Part shown: piece after piece, positions 1 through 6,598 of the stretch | How the letters are laid out: every line of letters starts with the position of its first letter | Position numbering within the stretch: the stretch's first letter is position 1 | Assembly: GCA_021817875.1 (NCBI GenBank) | Contig: JAKAFQ010000246.1 | Location: 1-6,614 of the forward strand | DNA length: 6,614 nt | Direction: 5' to 3' | Source of the DNA: Pseudomonadota bacterium | GTDB lineage: Bacteria > Pseudomonadota > Gammaproteobacteria > Steroidobacterales > Steroidobacteraceae | Translations under genes and position numbers: made by a program | The notes under the pieces: generated by a model | What the model was told of the DNA's origin: nothing | What the model saw: only the letters and a program-made list of their open reading frames with translations | The model's database searches: none

Positions 1-1524
1 AGCCTCGCGCTCGAGCCACACGCGCCAGACCATCCCGCGCGAAAGCTCGGTACCGAGCGCCCGTCGCTCATCGCGCTGACGCTTGGCCATCTGCTCGCGC
101 GCAGCCGCCGCCTTGAACGCGAAGAGCGCATCCGCCGTGCGGGCGTCCAGTCCCTGCGCCCGGAGCTCGGTGCGGGCGGTCTGCCGCTCGCGACGCAGGC
201 GTTCCGCGAGCGCCTGGCGCTCGGCGACGTGCTTCATGCGTAACGCCTCACGGCGCTTTGTTGCCTCCGCCTTCCGTTGAACCTCGCTGGCCGCGAAGCG
301 GGCCGCGAGCGCATCGCGTTCGGCCTGCCGTTCAGCGCGCCGTCGGGCACGGTCGTCCTGGTCGCGCTTACCGCGCTGCTGTCCAGCCCCACTGTGATCC
401 TGTTGCTGATGACCCTGCCCATGGGAGCCATGAGCATCGTGCTGGCGGGATTGCTCACGGTCCGCCGCTCCCCGCTGCCGGCCGGGTTCCGTGCCGGCCT
501 CACGGCCGGCCGGCCGCGCGGACTCCTCGCCACGCGGCGGGGCTTCGCTGCCGAGGTCCACCCGGGCGGTAATCACCGCTGCCTCATAGGTCCTGGCTGG
601 ATCGGCCGCTGGAAGTGGCTCAATCTGCGGGACGAACTCCCCCAGCCGCCGCTCAAGCGCAGACTTGCTCGCCCACCGGCCGAGTGTGCTCGCCTTCGCG
701 GCGAGCACGCGCGGCGCGGCGCCGACTGTGGATACCGTGGTAGTCACGATGAGGCCGGAACCCTTGCGCTCGAGCGCGCACCCGAATGCAGCGAGCGCGC
801 GGTGTGCGTCCCCCCACGTCGCGCCCTCGCGCTCCACGGCGGCGCGCAACGCCGCGCTCGGCGTCCCGGCCACCCATGACTCAAATGAAATGTCGCCGGC
901 CGCCGCCTCAATCTGAGCGGCATCCGGACTCGGAGTGGATCGCTCACCACGATCCTTCAGCAGCCCGCGCGCGGCGCGCTCCCGGCGGCTCATTCGCACG
1001 ATCTGAGGGCCGGACGGCGTGTCGACGGTGATCCACGGTCCGTTTGCGCGCGCCCACCCTTGCTCAATCTCGAGTTCGCGCATCGCGTGATCGAGTAACA
1101 GATAGTCGCGATGCGGGACTGCATGGATACGGCTGGATTCATCCACGCGACACGTCACGAGGTGCAGATGGTGATTGTCAGTGTCGCGGTGCAGCGCGGC
1201 CACGACAGGGCAGCCGCCGAAGCCCAGCTTGTCCATCACATGCGCGGCCGCCTGCGCGGCCTGCTCCTGCGTCGGGTGTTCCCCAGTCTGCCAGGTAATC
1301 ACCACATGGTACGGCTTCGGCCGCCGCCCACTCGCGCGAGCAGTGGTGCGCAGGATGTCGATAGCGGTTTCTCGATCGGCCCGCGAATCGAGGGGGCAAT
1401 CGACGCCGTGGACCCACATTTCGGGGCGCGGTTCACCGGCCTGATCAGGTCGATCCCGCGCGATATAGCGCACGGCCTCGCCGATATGAGCAGCGCCAGT
1501 CGCCTTGACCACCTTAGCCAGCAC
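1..1524 (-). CDS. traI: TraI/MobA-type (MOBP) conjugative relaxase, N-terminal 508 residues, runs off left edge
   Basis: Relaxases of this family nick one oriT strand through a tyrosine, stay bound to the 5' end and lead the strand into the recipient. The minus-strand frame is open without a stop for 508 codons and leaves the window. The N-terminus reads MLAKVVKATGAAHIGEAVRY with Tyr20 in the place of the RP4 TraI nucleophile Tyr22. Motif II is near residues 73-82 (HVVITWQTGE, Thr77 where RP4 has Ser74). Motif III, HRDTDNHHLH at 112-121, supplies the metal-binding histidines and Asp114. A conserved-looking segment (SFESWVAG, then TLGRWASKSALERRLG) follows, then a Gln/Arg/Glu-rich, probably coiled-coil region towards the edge. 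I chose the GTG at 1524 because it sits just upstream of motif I and overlaps the end of the traJ-like gene by 11 bp, implying translational coupling. The C-terminus (helicase, primase or other domain) lies outside. Family assignment is firm; the exact start is less so. Confidence 0.93.
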   Translation of the reverse strand, partial: MLAKVVKATGAAHIGEAVRYIARDRPDQAGEPRPEMWVHGVDCPLDSRADRETAIDILRTTARASGRRPKPYHVVITWQTGEHPTQEQAAQAAAHVMDKLGFGGCPVVAALHRDTDNHHLHLVTCRVDESSRIHAVPHRDYLLLDHAMRELEIEQGWARANGPWITVDTPSGPQIVRMSRRERAARGLLKDRGERSTPSPDAAQIEAAAGDISFESWVAGTPSAALRAAVEREGATWGDAHRALAAFGCALERKGSGLIVTTTVSTVGAAPRVLAAKASTLGRWASKSALERRLGEFVPQIEPLPAADPARTYEAAVITARVDLGSEAPPRGEESARPAGREAGTEPGRQRGAADREQSRQHDAHGSHGQGHQQQDHSGAGQQRGKRDQDDRARRRAERQAERDALAARFAASEVQRKAEATKRREALRMKHVAERQALAERLRRERQTARTELRAQGLDARTADALFAFKAAAAREQMAKRQRDERRALGTELSRGMVWRVWLEREA

Positions 1525-1810
1525 GACGCAGCGCCTCGTCAACCATTGCCACAATGCGGCTGTGCGCCGCCAGCGCCTCACGCAACTCGTCGACGCTGCG
1601 CCCGCCGCCCATGACGAGCTTCAAGAGCCCGCCCTGGCGTCCGAGTTCACCGCGGAGCTCGCGCAGCGCGGCGATCCGGGGATCGCGCACAGCACCTACG
1701 CGGCGCAGCCATGCGGAGGTAGAAAGACCGGCCGCCAGCGCAGCGGACTGAATCGCGCGGTGCTCGTCGACCGTGACCCGGATGCGCAGCATGTGGGTAC
1801 GTCTATCCAT
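1514..1810 (-). CDS. traJ: TraJ/MobC-like relaxosome accessory protein (oriT-binding), 98 aa
   Basis: In RP4, TraJ binds the inverted-repeat arm next to nic and recruits the TraI relaxase. This protein has an N-terminal segment (LRIRVTVDEHRAIQSAA, about residues 8-24) followed by GLSTSAWLRRVG, which resembles the ribbon-helix-helix half of TraJ/MobC. Near residues 47-60 it has GELGRQGGLLKLV, very close to the GDLGRLGGLLKL motif I recall from RP4 TraJ and related to the LNQLAR motif of MobC. At 98 residues it is a little shorter than RP4 TraJ (123). The reading frame stays open upstream to 1978, but the ATG at 1810 is preferred: it is preceded by GAGGAATGGAGC, a good ribosome-binding site, and an upstream start would place coding over the oriT hairpin. 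An ATG at 1792 is an alternative. Its end overlaps the relaxase start, and it is divergent from the traK-like operon across the presumed oriT. Confidence 0.87.
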   Translation of the reverse strand: MDRRTHMLRIRVTVDEHRAIQSAALAAGLSTSAWLRRVGAVRDPRIAALRELRGELGRQGGLLKLVMGGGRSVDELREALAAHSRIVAMVDEALRRAG

Positions 1811-1874
1811 GCTCCATTCCTCGGCCGGCGTGCAAAGAGCCGGATTCGTAAGAACTGCGTCAGACAGATCGGTA

Positions 1875-1946
1875 CAAGGTAGGGCGGTGTAGCTACACGG
1901 GGCGGCGCCGCAGGCGCCTTCCCCGTGCGCTACCACCGCCACCTTG
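1875..1946. repeat. Long imperfect inverted repeat (hairpin) in oriT
   Basis: The two arms can be paired from the outside in. CAAGGT (1875-1880) pairs with ACCTTG (1941-1946); GGCGGTG (1883-1889) with CACCGCC (1934-1940); TAGC (1890-1893) with GCTA (1929-1932). CACGGGG (1896-1902) pairs with CCCCGTG (1921-1927), and GGCGCC (1904-1909) with GGCGCC (1913-1918), around a GCA loop. Only 1-2 nt bulges or internal loops interrupt it, giving about 30 paired bases per arm. This resembles, but is longer than, the 19-bp imperfect repeat flanking RP4 nic, where one arm is the TraJ site. If transcribed it would also fold strongly, but no T-tract follows, so a terminator role is not supported. Confidence 0.85.
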
Positions 1947-1968
1947 GTCAGGCTTCGCCCGACACCCC
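1939..1968. repeat. Bipartite oriT motif, copy A
   Basis: CCACCTTGGTCAGG (1939-1952) is followed by a 5-nt gap and CCCGACACCCC (1958-1968). The same two blocks recur in the same order at 2012-2048. The gap and its edges form a minimal GGC-TTC-GCC hairpin. The first block overlaps the right arm of the long inverted repeat and contains the presumed nic-like CACCTTG, so this copy is joined to the hairpin while copy B is not. Confidence 0.8.
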
Positions 1969-2011
1969 GGTGCCCCACTCGGCGGCTGCGCCTTCTCGCG
2001 GCCCGGTCTCC

Positions 2012-2601: not shown

Positions 2602-3336
2602 ATGAACAACGCAACCCGCAACAGCGCCATTTACGTCGTGGGTGGAGGCAAGGGTGGGGTGGGCAAGAGCCTCTCATCCCATGCCCTGGTAGACTGCCTA
2701 CGCACCCCGATACTCGACCCCGCAGCGACCCCGTCACCGGAGCCCAATGAGGTCTGCTACATCGAGTCTGACGACAGCAACCCGGACGTGTACAAGGCCA
2801 TTCATGACTCGGCGGGCGTGCACGCCGAGGTCTGCAATCTTGACAACGAAGATGGCTACGTGCGGCTCATCAATACCATCGGCGCGCGCACGGACCTGCC
2901 AGTGGTGATTAACACTGCAGCGCGCGCGACTGCCACGCTCATTGAACACGGCGGGCTCTTAGCCGCCGCTGCTCAGGAACAGGGCCGCGAATTGGTCATG
3001 TTATGGGTGATCAACCGGCAGCGCGACTCGCTGGAATTGCTGCGGCAATGGCTCGACAGCAAGCAGGCGTACAGTGCCGTGTACGTTGTGCGCAATCTGT
3101 ACTTCGGTGCGGCCGAAAAATTCGACCGGTACAACAACGGGCGGCTCAAAACCGAAATCACAGGCACCATCGACTTGCCCGAGGTCACCGCGGAACTGGC
3201 GGACTATCTGACCGACCACCGGCTCGCCTTCTGGGCCGACCGCGACCGGGACGGGAATGCGTTCTCGCTGGGTTACAGGCTGGCGTTGGCCTCCTGGCGC
3301 GGGAGGAACCGGAAGGCGTTCGCGCCGGTGCTATGA
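2602..3336 (+). CDS. traL: TraL-like ParA/MinD-family ATPase, 244 aa
   Basis: A P-loop ATPase of the ParA/MinD/SIMIBI group. Residues 15-23 read GGKGGVGKS, a deviant Walker A motif with the signature lysine (Lys17) and the P-loop lysine (Lys22), after a hydrophobic strand (IYVVG). VCYIESDDSNPDVYKA (from about residue 50) fits the ParA-type switch region. Acidic and hydrophobic strands at VVINTA and LVMLWVINR fit the rest of the fold. At 244 residues it matches RP4 TraL (241 as I recall). The same slot is filled by MobD in pTF-FC2 and, by analogy, StbB in R388. In these systems the ATPase is accessory to mobilization or plasmid positioning; the precise role is unsettled. The ATG at 2602 follows GAGAGAG (2588-2594), which overlaps the traK stop. 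Lack of an evident DNA-binding domain argues against a stand-alone partition ParA. Confidence 0.82.
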   Translation: MNNATRNSAIYVVGGGKGGVGKSLSSHALVDCLRTPILDPAATPSPEPNEVCYIESDDSNPDVYKAIHDSAGVHAEVCNLDNEDGYVRLINTIGARTDLPVVINTAARATATLIEHGGLLAAAAQEQGRELVMLWVINRQRDSLELLRQWLDSKQAYSAVYVVRNLYFGAAEKFDRYNNGRLKTEITGTIDLPEVTAELADYLTDHRLAFWADRDRDGNAFSLGYRLALASWRGRNRKAFAPVL

Positions 3337-3638
3337 GCGAACTGGACGGCGGCAGGGGACAGGAGCCGGCGGCACCAATGGACGGTGCCGCCGCGCTCTC
3401 TGACATCAGCGAGTGCCTGCGGCACCTGGCGTGCGGGTACGGCCTCGATCCCCGCGAGCGGGCGGCCTGTCTCCGTCTCCTCAAGGCCGGAATCGCCGGT
3501 GGGGACGCCGCCGACCTTCAGGCGGCGGTTAAGGTCTTACAGTCTCAGCGCCGCCTCGCTGATCGGCAGCGAACTCAGGCCAGCGAGCTATCTCTCCGGC
3601 TCGGGGCGCTCGCCGAGTCCCTACGGCCCCGACCCTGA
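3333..3638 (+). CDS. Small TraM/MobE-position protein, 101 aa
   Basis: A small protein encoded immediately after the TraL-like ATPase: its ATG (3333) and the traL TGA (3334-3336) overlap as ATGA, so translation is almost certainly coupled. I recognise no catalytic motif. Residues 1-20 are Gly/Ala/Glu-rich and probably flexible. The rest is predicted helical, with a Cys-containing segment (ECLRHLACGYGLDPRERA, about 27-44) and a long amphipathic helix (about 60-98). It has no signal peptide or membrane segment. RP4 has traM (about 146 residues) and pTF-FC2 has mobE at this place, so a partner role for the ATPase is likely, but sequence similarity is not evident by eye. The reading frame stays open upstream to 3003 inside traL; that extension is a shadow. 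It is the last gene of the transfer operon and converges on the membrane-protein gene starting at 4277. Confidence 0.75.
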   Translation: MSELDGGRGQEPAAPMDGAAALSDISECLRHLACGYGLDPRERAACLRLLKAGIAGGDAADLQAAVKVLQSQRRLADRQRTQASELSLRLGALAESLRPRP

Positions 3639-3671: not shown

Positions 3672-4277
3672 TCAGCAAGCCGCAGCAAGGAGATCGGAGA
3701 TCCCTCGATCTCCTGCGGCGGCGAGCGCCAATTCGGACTTCAGGACACTATTGAAGTCGCGATTCACATTGTGCTGCAGGACGCCCGAGGGCGCGGATAC
3801 GACGAACGCTATGGTGGCCGCAACGGCGGCTACCGGAATCATCATGATCGCGATCAATGACCGTCGGATCACGGCGCTCGTGACATGCCAAGAGGCGGAT
3901 CGAAGAACTGACTGCGCGGCAGACCGCAGGCTCGGATCCAACGTCTCCATGGCGGAGGCCATCGCCTCCGCAATCGTCCTTTCCACGTTCAGGTTCCTGC
4001 CGGCCAGTAGGTACACAAGAGCGCTCGGCAGCGTCATTTTGTGCGCGAAGCGAATTTCGCCGTTCAGCACTTCCCGGACGAACCGAGCTCCACGGGTCTG
4101 CAACGCTTCCGCATCAGCACAGGTATCAAACCACTGGTCGCGCAGCTCGAATAGACGCTGTCGCGTCTGATCGACGACGAAGCGTTGCCAGAGGGTGTAG
4201 AACCATACAAGAATCAGCACTGCGGCAATCAGGCCAATGAGTGCGCTTGGCGCCAAGGACTGGATATATGAACTCAT
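3672..4277 (-). CDS. Small membrane protein with two predicted TM segments, 201 aa, function unknown
   Basis: Not recognised as a named protein. Residues 11-30 are a strong membrane segment (SALIGLIAAVLILVWFYTLW) right at the N-terminus, and 140-161 a second one. Between them lies a roughly 105-residue helical domain beginning VVDQTRQRLFELRDQWFD and including REVLNGEIRFAHKMTLP. I associate an RQRLF-LRD / LN-IR-AH pattern with an uncharacterised family of bacterial membrane proteins, but have no function for it. The short tail (162-201) would face the same side as the N-terminus. The ATG at 4277 is preceded by GGGAGGAC and overlaps the stop of the upstream 132-aa gene by 4 bp (ATGA), so the two are coupled and probably interact. 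It converges on the transfer operon with a 33-bp gap. Confidence 0.75.
   Translation of the reverse strand: MSSYIQSLAPSALIGLIAAVLILVWFYTLWQRFVVDQTRQRLFELRDQWFDTCADAEALQTRGARFVREVLNGEIRFAHKMTLPSALVYLLAGRNLNVERTIAEAMASAMETLDPSLRSAAQSVLRSASWHVTSAVIRRSLIAIMMIPVAAVAATIAFVVSAPSGVLQHNVNRDFNSVLKSELALAAAGDRGISDLLAAAC
3680..3718. terminator. Stem-loop at the junction of convergent operons, possible terminator
   Basis: CCGCA (3680-3684) pairs with TGCGG (3714-3718), and GGAGATCG (3689-3696) with CGATCTCC (3706-3713), with a GCAA bulge on one side and a 9-nt loop. It lies 42 bp past the last transfer-gene stop and inside the final codons of the minus-strand membrane gene. A stop for traK-L-M transcription is plausible, but there is no T-run on either strand, so it is not a classical intrinsic terminator. 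Confidence 0.35.
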
Positions 4278-4672
4278 TTGTCGTCCTCCCGCGTGTCTCC
4301 GTTGGGCAGTAGTCCGCTCGATGAGCGGGTCGGATCTAGTCGCAGTTCAAGCTCCCGATTTCTCTGGCTCAATTTCTCCGTCTTGCGGCGACGCTCCCGG
4401 CGCTCGAGTAACGCATAGCCGATACTGCCACCTGTGATGAGCCATGCAAACTTCGCGGTGCCGAGATGCGCGTACGCTCTCACTGCCAGCGCGACCATGA
4501 TCTTCGCTGTGGTCGCTTGCCCAGCGAAGGCCCGAGCGATCAAGACGAGGCAGTACGCAGCTCCGAGCCACGCACCGGCAATCACTGCGGTCCGCAAGAA
4601 CTTGAACAGTTCGACGTAAAAAACGGTTGGCCGTTCCTTTCGTCGCTTCTCTTCGTTCGAACTCAAGGACAC
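4274..4672 (-). CDS. Small membrane protein with charged C-terminal helix, 132 aa, function unknown
   Basis: Not recognised. The N-terminus is highly charged (SSNEEKRRKERP), followed by two predicted membrane segments, about residues 28-50 (TAVIAGAWLGAAYCLVLIAR) and about 74-89 (KFAWLITGGSIGYALL). From about residue 90 to 113 comes a strongly charged, probably coiled-coil helix (ERRERRRKTEKLSQRNRELE) and then a polar tail. The positive residues after the second segment suggest both ends are cytoplasmic. The proposed start is GTG at 4672; the upstream bases give only a weak ribosome-binding site, and no ATG offers a better choice. It overlaps the following 201-aa membrane gene by 4 bp, so the pair likely forms a two-component membrane complex. 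Nothing in it reveals an activity. Confidence 0.68.
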   Translation of the reverse strand: MSLSSNEEKRRKERPTVFYVELFKFLRTAVIAGAWLGAAYCLVLIARAFAGQATTAKIMVALAVRAYAHLGTAKFAWLITGGSIGYALLERRERRRKTEKLSQRNRELELRLDPTRSSSGLLPNGDTREDDK

Positions 4673-4748: not shown

Positions 4749-4831
4749 CCTCACTCCGGGTGATTCAACCGAATATTGATCCCACCCGAGAGCCCCTGAT
4801 GCCGCAGGGCATCCTGCGCGTGCCCGAGACC
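4749..4831. repeat. 83-bp direct repeat, left copy
   Basis: Base-for-base identical to 6516-6598, at an offset of 1767 bp; identity stops sharply on both sides (A versus C before, G versus A after). On the minus strand it is exactly 26 codons (beginning GLGHAQDALRHQ, ending RLNHPE), a TGA stop and 2 more bases. It contains internal symmetry: CTCCGGGTG (4754-4762) pairs with CACCCGAGAG (4783-4792, one bulge), enclosing an ATTC/GAAT mini-hairpin. The two copies bound the proteasome-like gene and its partner. Confidence 0.97.
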
Positions 4832-4909
4832 GCTGACGATATTCGCCGCGCCTAGCGACTGGGCGCCCAGGAAGTCCATAACGACTTCACTGTCCCAATG
4901 CTGGTTCAC
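4751..4909 (-). CDS. Small ORF, 52 aa, whose 3' half is the left 83-bp repeat
   Basis: The frame starting with GTG at 4909 reads MNQHWDSEVVMDFLGAQSLG, continues AANIVSG and then enters the repeat-encoded 26-residue end. Its GTG overlaps a TGA (4908-4906) that closes another minus-strand frame ending VLRPIVPGSA, a GTGA arrangement typical of coupled genes. This suggests a remnant of an older gene pair. The ribosome-binding site is weak, and an in-frame ATG at 4879 would give 42 residues. No domain is recognised; the protein is short, without a membrane segment. That a second copy of its end occurs after another upstream sequence at the right window edge supports this frame being, or having been, coding. 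The frame can be extended to a TTG at 5026, but that overlaps the 61-aa gene and is less likely. Confidence 0.4.
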   Translation of the reverse strand: MNQHWDSEVVMDFLGAQSLGAANIVSGLGHAQDALRHQGLSGGINIRLNHPE

Positions 4910-4979
4910 GCTGACCCAGGAACGATGGGACGGAGCACCACGTCGATGATGGCGACCGGTTCGTGGATCTTGCGACAGC

Positions 4980-5165
4980 CTACTCCTCCAAGATCTCCGT
5001 ATTTTCGTTGACTGGGCGTTTCTCAAGTTCGCGAAGAAGCTCTTCGTAGTGCGTTAACGCGTCGGGCTTCTTGGCGACGTAAACCTCCGACGTTTTCAGA
5101 TCTAAAGTCTCATGCGCCTCAGCGGCGATGTTGTACATATCACTGTACTTAACGTTGCTCTTCAT
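4980..5165 (-). CDS. Small acidic protein coupled to the proteasome-like gene, 61 aa, function unknown
   Basis: Starts at ATG 5165 with a near-ideal ribosome-binding site (GGAGG at 5178-5174, 8 nt upstream), only 14 bp after the stop of the 426-aa gene, so the two are one transcription and probably translation unit. The frame is open further up to 5258, but that would overlap the preceding gene by 79 bp and ignore this site. The protein (MKSNVKYSDMYNIAAEAHET then LDLKTSEVYVAKKPDA) ends in a charged, probably helical segment, YEELLRELEKRP, and an acidic tail. It has no signal peptide, membrane segment, cysteine or DNA-binding motif. It could be a substrate, inhibitor, adaptor or assembly partner of its neighbour; the sequence does not distinguish these. 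Confidence 0.72.
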   Translation of the reverse strand: MKSNVKYSDMYNIAAEAHETLDLKTSEVYVAKKPDALTHYEELLRELEKRPVNENTEILEE

Positions 5166-5179
5166 AATCAGCGCCTCCG

Positions 5180-6460
5180 TTAATGCGTGGCCCCGTACCG
5201 TCTCGTAAAGAATCTGGGGTTTAGCTCTGGCCGGAAGTAATGTTTGCGCTCGATCCAAATAAAGCCATCATGCTTGCTGATGGCCGCCACATCAATCGGA
5301 CCCCCGACAGACTCACTTGGTTTAGTGACTCGTTCCTTTAGGGACTGAAGCTCTATCAGGCTCTTTGCGAGAGCGGCCATTTCTGCTACGGGTAGTGACG
5401 CAATTACTCGCGCCATCGGAGAATGGTGACTGCTGAACGACTGCGAGAACCATTCCTTCCGGTGCTCTTGAAGAGCATCTTCAACCATTTGTTCAATCCC
5501 TGGAATATCGCCCTCATGTTCAATTCGTTCGGCGATTCTTGCGGCGAAATCTGTTAGGCATTTGCGAGTTGCATCGTCAACATTCTGATGGACGTCCGGG
5601 CTGATACCGAGACGAAATGTGTTGATCATACTGGTCGTGGCGAATGGCCTAATGATTGCCGGAATCTCGTTAGTGATCGTGGCGGGATTTTCCTCGGGTA
5701 TTGCAATGAAGTGCCTCTCCAGGAAGCCCCTGCACTTGTACGCCTCAAATGAGGGGAAGTAGTCCTTCTGTCCGTAGCCGCCGATCACGATTCCGGACTC
5801 GCCGAGAAAAAGGTCGTGGCGCTTCATGGCCGCCCTGATTGAGACATCTGCGAGCCGCGGGGCGGACCCAAGATCAATCACGTACTCAGGTCCAATTTCT
5901 TCGCGAATCCTCCTGGTGATCTCAACAGCGTGTGCGGCTACCGCGGCTTCTATATCCTCCGGTGTCAACGGTACGGGGACCTCCAAGCGTGCAACGTCTG
6001 CCTCAAGTTCGGTCAGCTTATTAAGGTAGCAGTTCACCTGATCTTGGCCCTCCGCTTGCTTGACCGACTCGTCTTCCTTGAGCATGCGCGCATTGAAAAA
6101 TGCAGCCATCGTTGCATTCTCCAGAAACAGTCGCTGCTTCATCTCGTCTGGGAAAAGCGCAGAGTGCCCCTCAACGAAGCGGAAAAATCGCTCTCGGTAG
6201 CCAGATATGGAGTCCGAGGACTCCGTTCCGAGATGAGCCCGGAAATCCTTGACGATGATCTCCCAAGGCACGGAATGGAGTCCCGCTGAACCAAAGATCA
6301 TGAGGCCAACGGGGTGAACGTCAGAAAGCTGGAATAGCTTATTTGCCCCTTTGAAGTACCGGACTTCCTGTTTGCCCTTGATCCAATGGGTGACCGTGGT
6401 GGCACTGTCGGCGGCAAAGATCAGCGCATGCTGGTTCATGATCGCCACTTCCGCAGTCAC
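5180..6460 (-). CDS. Proteasome/HslV-like N-terminal-nucleophile hydrolase, 426 aa
   Basis: Read as an Ntn hydrolase of the proteasome-beta/HslV type (threonine peptidase fold). After the initiating residue the protein begins TAEVAIMNQHALIFAADS. Counting Thr2 as position 1, Asp18 falls exactly at catalytic position 17. Lys41 in GANKLFQL corresponds to Lys33 of the KKI segment, after a 7-residue insertion. GLMIFGSAG (52-60) fits the following strand and glycine loop, and SGIVIGGYG with FPSFEAYKCRG (222-245) the second sheet. MetAP removal of Met before Thr would expose the nucleophile, as in HslV. At 426 residues it is over twice a normal subunit: about 120-220 is an acidic helical insertion, and about 290-426 a C-terminal extension ending VGGPIDVAAISKHDGFIWIE. 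No HslU or other ATPase is present. The GTG start at 6460 has AGGAG 9 nt upstream. The fold is inferred by eye; substrate and role are unknown. Confidence 0.78.
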   Translation of the reverse strand: MTAEVAIMNQHALIFAADSATTVTHWIKGKQEVRYFKGANKLFQLSDVHPVGLMIFGSAGLHSVPWEIIVKDFRAHLGTESSDSISGYRERFFRFVEGHSALFPDEMKQRLFLENATMAAFFNARMLKEDESVKQAEGQDQVNCYLNKLTELEADVARLEVPVPLTPEDIEAAVAAHAVEITRRIREEIGPEYVIDLGSAPRLADVSIRAAMKRHDLFLGESGIVIGGYGQKDYFPSFEAYKCRGFLERHFIAIPEENPATITNEIPAIIRPFATTSMINTFRLGISPDVHQNVDDATRKCLTDFAARIAERIEHEGDIPGIEQMVEDALQEHRKEWFSQSFSSHHSPMARVIASLPVAEMAALAKSLIELQSLKERVTKPSESVGGPIDVAAISKHDGFIWIERKHYFRPELNPRFFTRRYGATH

Positions 6461-6515
6461 AGGTAGGCGCTCCTCGTCTTTTGTGGGTGCGAATCTACAC
6501 GACGATGGCCATAGC

Positions 6516-6598
6516 CCTCACTCCGGGTGATTCAACCGAATATTGATCCCACCCGAGAGCCCCTGATGCCGCAGGGCATCCTGCGCGTGCCCGAGACC
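6516..6598. repeat. 83-bp direct repeat, right copy
   Basis: Identical to 4749-4831. It lies 55 bp upstream of the GTG start of the proteasome-like gene, so any promoter for that gene must lie in this 55-bp gap or within the repeat. Beyond 6598 only 16 bases remain in the window, and they differ from the sequence beyond the left copy. Confidence 0.97.

Follow-up and report, generated by a model that had tools for sequence, protein, structure and literature searches.

In their 2021 survey of proteasome homologues, Fuchs, Alva and Lupas described a group, PMI-4/PHI, with the proteasome fold but no propeptide, the catalytic residues Thr/Asp/Lys and a long helical insertion after H1/H2, which occurs in bacteria and archaea (PMC8665760). 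PMI-4 was also listed for phages, beside bacteria and Euryarchaeota (PMC8665760, Table 1), an insertion between H3 and H4 was given as a feature of PMI-2 to PMI-6, and no genomic context or co-occurrence pattern that points to a function was reported (PMC8665760). Here we describe a proteasome-like N-terminal nucleophile (Ntn) hydrolase and its small partner in a stretch of 6,614 nucleotides from a Steroidobacteraceae genome (the window). Compared with the published description, the hydrolase resembles the PMI/PHI homologues in its fold, its Thr/Asp/Lys residues, its long insertion and its occurrence in phages, bacteria and archaea, a likeness that falls short of proving the subfamily. Unlike the survey, we find a recurrent small partner open reading frame (ORF), and the copy in the window sits in a cargo slot.

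Conjugative elements of the IncP type have hot spots for accessory genes, in which variable cargo lies next to trb/tra genes between conserved borders. The window shows a cargo slot that lies directly behind trbL and belongs to a family of conjugative elements; compared with the IncP-type hot spots, the variable part begins directly after the trbL stop codon, and the trbL end can be the left anchor. Our favoured reading, with a probability of about 0.6, is that a nomadic two-gene module was inserted after trbL through one homologous and one illegitimate junction, where we infer both the mechanism and the function. The unit consists of the following features:

4749-4831, minus strand: left repeat copy, a duplicate of the 3' end of trbL that is detached from the gene and joined to unrelated DNA on its upstream side
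4832-4979, minus strand: trailer of 148 bp, ending at an illegitimate-looking junction with the trbL tail
4751-5026, minus strand: chimeric ORF of 91 aa spanning the junction, probably not a gene; seven database matches, each covering just 29% (the TrbL tail)
4980-5165, minus strand: small partner protein of 61 aa, starting at an internal ATG of a listed 92-aa ORF
5180-6460, minus strand: proteasome-like Ntn hydrolase of 426 aa with a GTG start and Thr2/Asp18/Lys41
6461-6515, minus strand: leader from the trbL stop codon to the hydrolase start
6516-6598, minus strand: right repeat copy, the 3' end of trbL, which runs past the window (L003:6648-8477, minus strand)

The repeat, the trbL end and the empty site

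The window (G000:C53:131-6744) belongs to a contig of 22,177 bp in an assembly of 325 contigs. The initial annotation had described perfect direct repeats of 83 bp around a unit of 1767 bp, and within the window 4749-4831 and 6516-6598 are indeed identical at 83/83 positions with starts 1767 bp apart, an exact match whose length is far above chance expectation. A single base is discordant between the window and the assembly contig (6517, C vs G); it lies directly beside the repeat, which in the assembly is therefore 81 bp and not 83 bp long. These 81 bp are exactly the last 26 codons and the stop codon of trbL, whose product of 609 aa is a P-type TrbL (TIGR02783, TrbL_P, 2.4e-42, 145.3 bits with a cut-off of 128.85). 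The left copy is preceded on its own strand by the 148-bp trailer, and the rest of trbL is absent there. The interior of the unit is, as had been stated, richer in A+T, with a GC content of 0.51-0.56 vs 0.58-0.72 elsewhere (500-bp windows).

Potentially, the repeat could be an artefact of the assembly or of a strain mixture, in which the 81 bp are a graph node that links two real paths. The assembly is fragmented, and the discordant base lies right beside the repeat. On the other hand, 81 bp is below common read length, a relative matches the locus on both of its flanks and 4832-4979 is not derived from trbL, which makes an artefact very improbable in our view.

The trailer itself gave few matches: with a query of 354 bp that contains it, we found beyond the own genome just matches of 22-37 bp (E 0.001-0.01) in 9/147 other genomes, and its 65-aa translation had no plasmid match. 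In a separate search at the DNA level, phages gave no match and plasmids a single piece of 97 bp. Seven other chimeric tail ORFs were found, and by eye the sequence ahead of the tail is TrbL-like in all of them.

An empty site with a single repeat copy, which the initial annotation had proposed to look for, is present in a congener (L040). There, the trbL stop codon is joined directly to the left flank of the window, with one trbL end and no hydrolase match; the left flank has 3 mismatches in 2,506 bp, the trbL side about 84% identity. L040 is an empty site, and the hydrolase unit is therefore an insertion relative to the L040 state. Excision between the repeats, which had been predicted to be clean and to leave one copy, would restore this arrangement, and trbL joined to GGTGCGCTGCG would mark an empty allele. 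The genes shared with L040 are the following (identities are those of the amino-acid sequences):

4274-4672, minus strand: membrane-protein ORF by eye (tm1), the gene that comes next to trbL at the empty site; 100% identity in L040
3672-4277, minus strand: second membrane-protein ORF by eye (tm2), empty-site cargo; 99.5% identity in L040
2602-3638, plus strand: ParA/MinD-like ATPase (weak match, below cut-off; 99.6% identity in L040) and a 101-aa ORF

The block from tm1 to parA is 99.9% identical between two lineages with flanks that are only 80-84% identical, so it must have moved recently. The order of events could thus be reversed: trbL with the hydrolase would have come first, and a block (trbL end)-tm1-tm2-parA would have arrived later, its left end joined illegitimately. 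However, the left copy is identical to the trbL end of the window at 81/81 positions, whereas the trbL end of L040 agrees at 74/81, and a donor for this order would therefore need the tail type of the window or gene conversion. We regard the reverse order as quite unlikely.

Next to the pair of trbL ends in the window, we compared the trbL ends of relatives. TrbL matches occur in 18/148 genomes, the own genome included, many of them distant; we examined 15 loci from eight genomes, each with a trbL end. In 0/13 related loci is the trbL end repeated downstream (0.9-6 kb searched). An exact search for the tail pattern in 58 genomes of the genus yielded 17 trbL ends in 9 genomes. Two ends on one contig, 1767 bp apart, are seen only in the genome of the window; the other 15 are each single on their contigs, which are fragmented. 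Codon differences in the tail are 339 synonymous vs 21 non-synonymous in 10 loci, and 872:173 in 16 tails with degraded ones included. This conservation at the protein level argues against an att site, and we rejected the repeat as such a site since the tails vary at synonymous sites and are unpaired elsewhere.

Two further classes were considered and rejected. For an integron-type gene cassette, there is a single tail pair on one contig among the 17 trbL ends, and the 81 bp are coding and variable at synonymous sites. For a transposon with target-site duplication, we saw no transposase among the ORFs between the repeats; only one of the 25 longest inverted repeats (of 27 in the window) has both arms in the unit, and it is internal (17 nt, 82%). 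That no transposase or integrase is visible agrees with the initial annotation: we saw no recombinase among the ORFs of the window, and a tyrosine integrase lies about 14 kb off on the same contig (L004:8741-9904, PF00589, 8.5e-24). In summary, the earlier cassette reading holds in part for the genes but fails for the repeat. An insertion, a recurrent module and a hydrolase found on plasmids, phages and satellites agree with mobility, whereas a dedicated boundary is not supported: the repeat belongs to a longer gene, as its 3' end, a finding named in advance as one that would speak against that reading.

In the other related loci, differing DNA starts right after the trbL stop codon. We tested ten cargo proteins from 8 loci against Pfam, and 9 matched at E <= 0.01. 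The cargo comprises a nucleotidyltransferase with a HepT-like protein (L044), Peptidase_M78 (L049), SocA/Panacea (L051), HEPN (L053), HigB plus HTH_3 below its cut-off (L054), NYN (L045) and DUF4258 (L041), together with cargo without a Pfam match in L052 and a protein without one in L046. L047 and L050 carry the same NYN cargo as L045, and L042 and L048 end soon after trbL. In L051, L052, L053 and L054, trbL is partial or degraded, with the 3' part left and other cargo following, which is of the toxin-antitoxin type in three of the four. Three pairs of loci share near-identical cargo while their trbL bodies have diverged (the left copy of the window and L040, L041/L048, L045/L047), and the identity begins 17, 60 and 36 bp, respectively, before the end of the trbL stop codon (the L041/L048 comparison spans just 67 bp before the contig end). 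Because the identity begins inside the tail, the trbL end can serve as the left anchor of cargo exchange, which marks it as such an anchor in conjugative elements.

The defence role that had been suggested for the cargo remains unproven. Toxin-antitoxin-type cargo is present in 4/8 tested slots (L044, L051, L053, L054), but the link to the hydrolase is one of position alone, in a slot that holds such genes in some relatives, and there is no recurrent defence family beside the hydrolase family. We picked 139 nearest neighbours and excluded two of L104, a duplicate of L101; among the matches listed (the first 25 of 127 for PADLOC and 25 of 143 for Pfam), no family occurs in more than 2 of the remaining 137, and the matched families range from restriction enzymes to housekeeping genes. 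Neither the hydrolase nor the partner matches a PADLOC model (2023) at E <= 1.

The hydrolase and its small partner

A two-gene unit of an Ntn hydrolase and a 61-aa partner had been proposed, and this holds: both are open frames, and the hydrolase has the proteasome beta fold with an N-terminal Thr and the equivalents of Asp17 and Lys33. Where aligned among 80 loci, the catalytic residues are invariant (T2 77/77, D18 78/78, K41 79/79). Judging from fold and residues only, Thr2 would be the nucleophile of a peptidase or amidase once Met1 is removed. The long insertion after H1/H2 corresponds to helices that span about residues 105-218 and separate the second helix from the strand that follows; further long helices, which bear on a possible insertion between H3 and H4, lie at 288-312, 322-355 and 358-379. 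With Anbu and the 20S proteasome beta subunits the hydrolase shares about 15% identity, and it differs from them in the extra helical region (about residues 105-218) and in length (426 aa vs about 200-240).

A profile search of solved structures by sequence found proteasome subunits only at E >= 0.11. A scan of genome and viral contigs with the single hydrolase sequence gave no match, whereas alignment-based scans of the two sets supplied the loci used here (the best 80 of 281 and the best 80 of 156). In 148 relatives, the own genome included, the hydrolase protein has 4 matches, three of them weak. Among metagenome contigs, the cluster of the window protein occurs on 38, the longest of which has 80,760 bp. 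The family is also found on plasmids, phages (13 records) and satellites, and in archaeal loci. In two of five plasmid records, both rhizobial (L268, L269), genes for multiubiquitin-domain and ThiF proteins are at most a few kb from the hydrolase, which places a proteasome homologue close to a ubiquitin-like system. In streptococcal satellites and a prophage (L160, L161, L165) it lies at or near the element end; in L160 it lies behind a gene pair of the RelE-like/HTH type (by eye), in an interval flanked by a duplicated gene end.

A small ORF follows the hydrolase in 68/77 genomic loci, so that hydrolase and partner are a recurrent two-gene module. Three homologues of the window partner have 61 aa and 85-97% identity. 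A hidden Markov model (HMM) of the partner built from 23 seeds detected 13 further partners at E <= 2e-4, while the best of 690 shuffled controls reached 0.0098. The partner may be an adaptor, a regulator or a dedicated substrate of the hydrolase. Among the papers listed in literature searches on the pair and on the trbL cargo slot, we saw none on the hydrolase-partner pair. The recurrent partner would be a functional lead for a group of proteasome homologues that had none from gene context in the 2021 survey.

Duplications around the pair and the proposed insertion event

Exact repeats of at least 18 bp lie within 2 kb of the pair in 11/82 loci, and within 1.2 kb in 6/77 loci vs 8/734 control intervals. 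For BLAST direct repeats (E <= 1e-6), the first runs gave 8/75 vs 10/428 controls and 0/64 vs 1/240. These two sets shared loci, and we repeated the count on 144 dereplicated groups, skipping 9 for short flanks. With 1-kb flanks and the same E-value, a direct repeat is found in 8/135 loci vs 22/1,141 controls (one-sided Fisher p 0.01, for control intervals that come from the same loci, overlap and are not independent). Genomic loci account for 8/75 vs 20/924 controls, the mostly viral rest for 0/60 vs 2/217.

Long duplications (at least 100 bp and at least 79% identity) flank the pair in 5/135 other distinct loci vs 0/1,141 control intervals, and all five are within the 75 genomic loci. They are the 3' end of fabD (L071; 243 bp, 86%), ubiA (L084; 555 bp, 100%), the 3' end of cdhB (L100; 149 bp, 79%), the 5' end of a methylase gene, with an extra small ORF beside the pair (L082; 264 bp, 94%), and a fifth case with a further copy (L128). 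The names fabD, fabG, cdhB and methylase were given by eye; the Pfam families that the neighbours match include UbiA and CO_dh. A satellite phage (L160) is a looser case, with 76% identity and a spacing of about 3.5 kb. In L071 the pair nearly fills the gap, and since fabG begins at most 200 bp from fabD in 26/29 relatives, this pair looks like an insertion too. Of its two copies, the displaced one is slightly more similar to the best relative (82.3%) than the one attached to the gene (79.8%), which fits a donor-derived gene end without being decisive.

One could see in these loci a dedicated mobile cassette, modelled on islands that integrate into gene 3' ends: a trans-acting recombinase would insert the pair there, and the unit would carry a copy of the gene end. 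In its favour, gene 3' ends make up the duplicates of the window, of L071, L084 and L100 and, at 76% identity, of L160, and the starts of the two copies lie at similar distances (1754-2220 bp for the window and for L071, L100, L082 and L084). However, the targets have no common sequence by eye, the duplicates vary from 81 to 555 bp, that of L082 is a 5' end, we saw no recombinase among the ORFs that the repeats enclose, the tails of trbL differ at synonymous positions and 0/60 further distinct loci have a flanking repeat. Such a cassette is, in our judgement, improbable.

We favour one homologous and one illegitimate junction because they explain the sharp inner edge and the outer edge at the gene end, as well as why both copies are identical to the trbL of the recipient itself and why the targets are so varied. 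Donor DNA of the order trbL-hydrolase-partner would undergo homologous recombination within the end of trbL; the other end of the donor would be joined by an illegitimate event to the trbL of the recipient, at a point 81 bp from the end of the gene. The module would be added and the 81-bp duplicate left behind, much as in homology-facilitated illegitimate recombination (HFIR). In HFIR (PMC3240628), the same two kinds of junction would likewise yield an insertion with a partial duplicate, while at our locus the process is read from its product only, with the donor not seen.

Several points weigh against this reading. We found no donor with trbL-hydrolase alone, which is why the homologous left junction is not seen directly, and HFIR was rare in E. 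coli conjugation (PMC3240628). The partner HMM of the distant loci leaves the window partner unmatched (E 5.2). The threshold for long duplications was picked after seeing the data, L084 is near the end of its contig, the duplication of L128 could be a dispersed repeat, and the 60 further distinct, mostly viral loci have no flanking repeat around the pair. L271, the closest fabD relative and one of the three exceptions, is without fabG in the 1.5 kb examined. Finally, the NYN cargo of L050 is 87% identical to that of L045 and L047, and here the identity starts 5-43 bp after the trbL stop codon.

It is tempting to generalise further, although we think it rather unlikely: an undescribed nomadic pair without its own recombinase would insert next to or into genes of bacteria and archaea, duplicating 81-555 bp of the target, preferably the 3' end, and would work as a self-sufficient module of protease and adaptor, in competition with toxin-antitoxin genes for cargo slots.

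The insertion signature (an empty site, a duplicated gene end and further cases with the same pair in unrelated hosts) suggests a way in which gene pairs that lack a transposase may become established in genomes. What deserves following up are the partner gene and the recurrent duplications.

Neighbouring genes and further observations

Farther from the unit, the window contains one more group of genes:

1-1978, minus strand: relaxase, running off the window (PF03432, 3.2e-21), and NikA-like protein (PF21983, 4.7e-14)

The relaxase matches the TraI/MobA(P) family at 1e-71 with 242 bits, below the cut-off of 250. The 101-aa ORF within 2602-3638 is the most frequent border beyond the cargo slot. 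The membrane ORF at 3672-4277 matches the PADLOC model '1TM-TIR' at 1.1e-7, yet by eye it has no obvious TIR domain. Upstream of trbL (L003:8603-10603) lies a gene for a 666-aa protein, by eye a PilV-type pilus tip, without a Pfam match. The stretch between the TrbL region and the tyrosine integrase encodes a type III restriction enzyme (ResIII) as well as a DNA methylase (L004:138-5055), and L004:6011-6114 is a tandem repeat of 52 bp in 2 copies with 98% identity.
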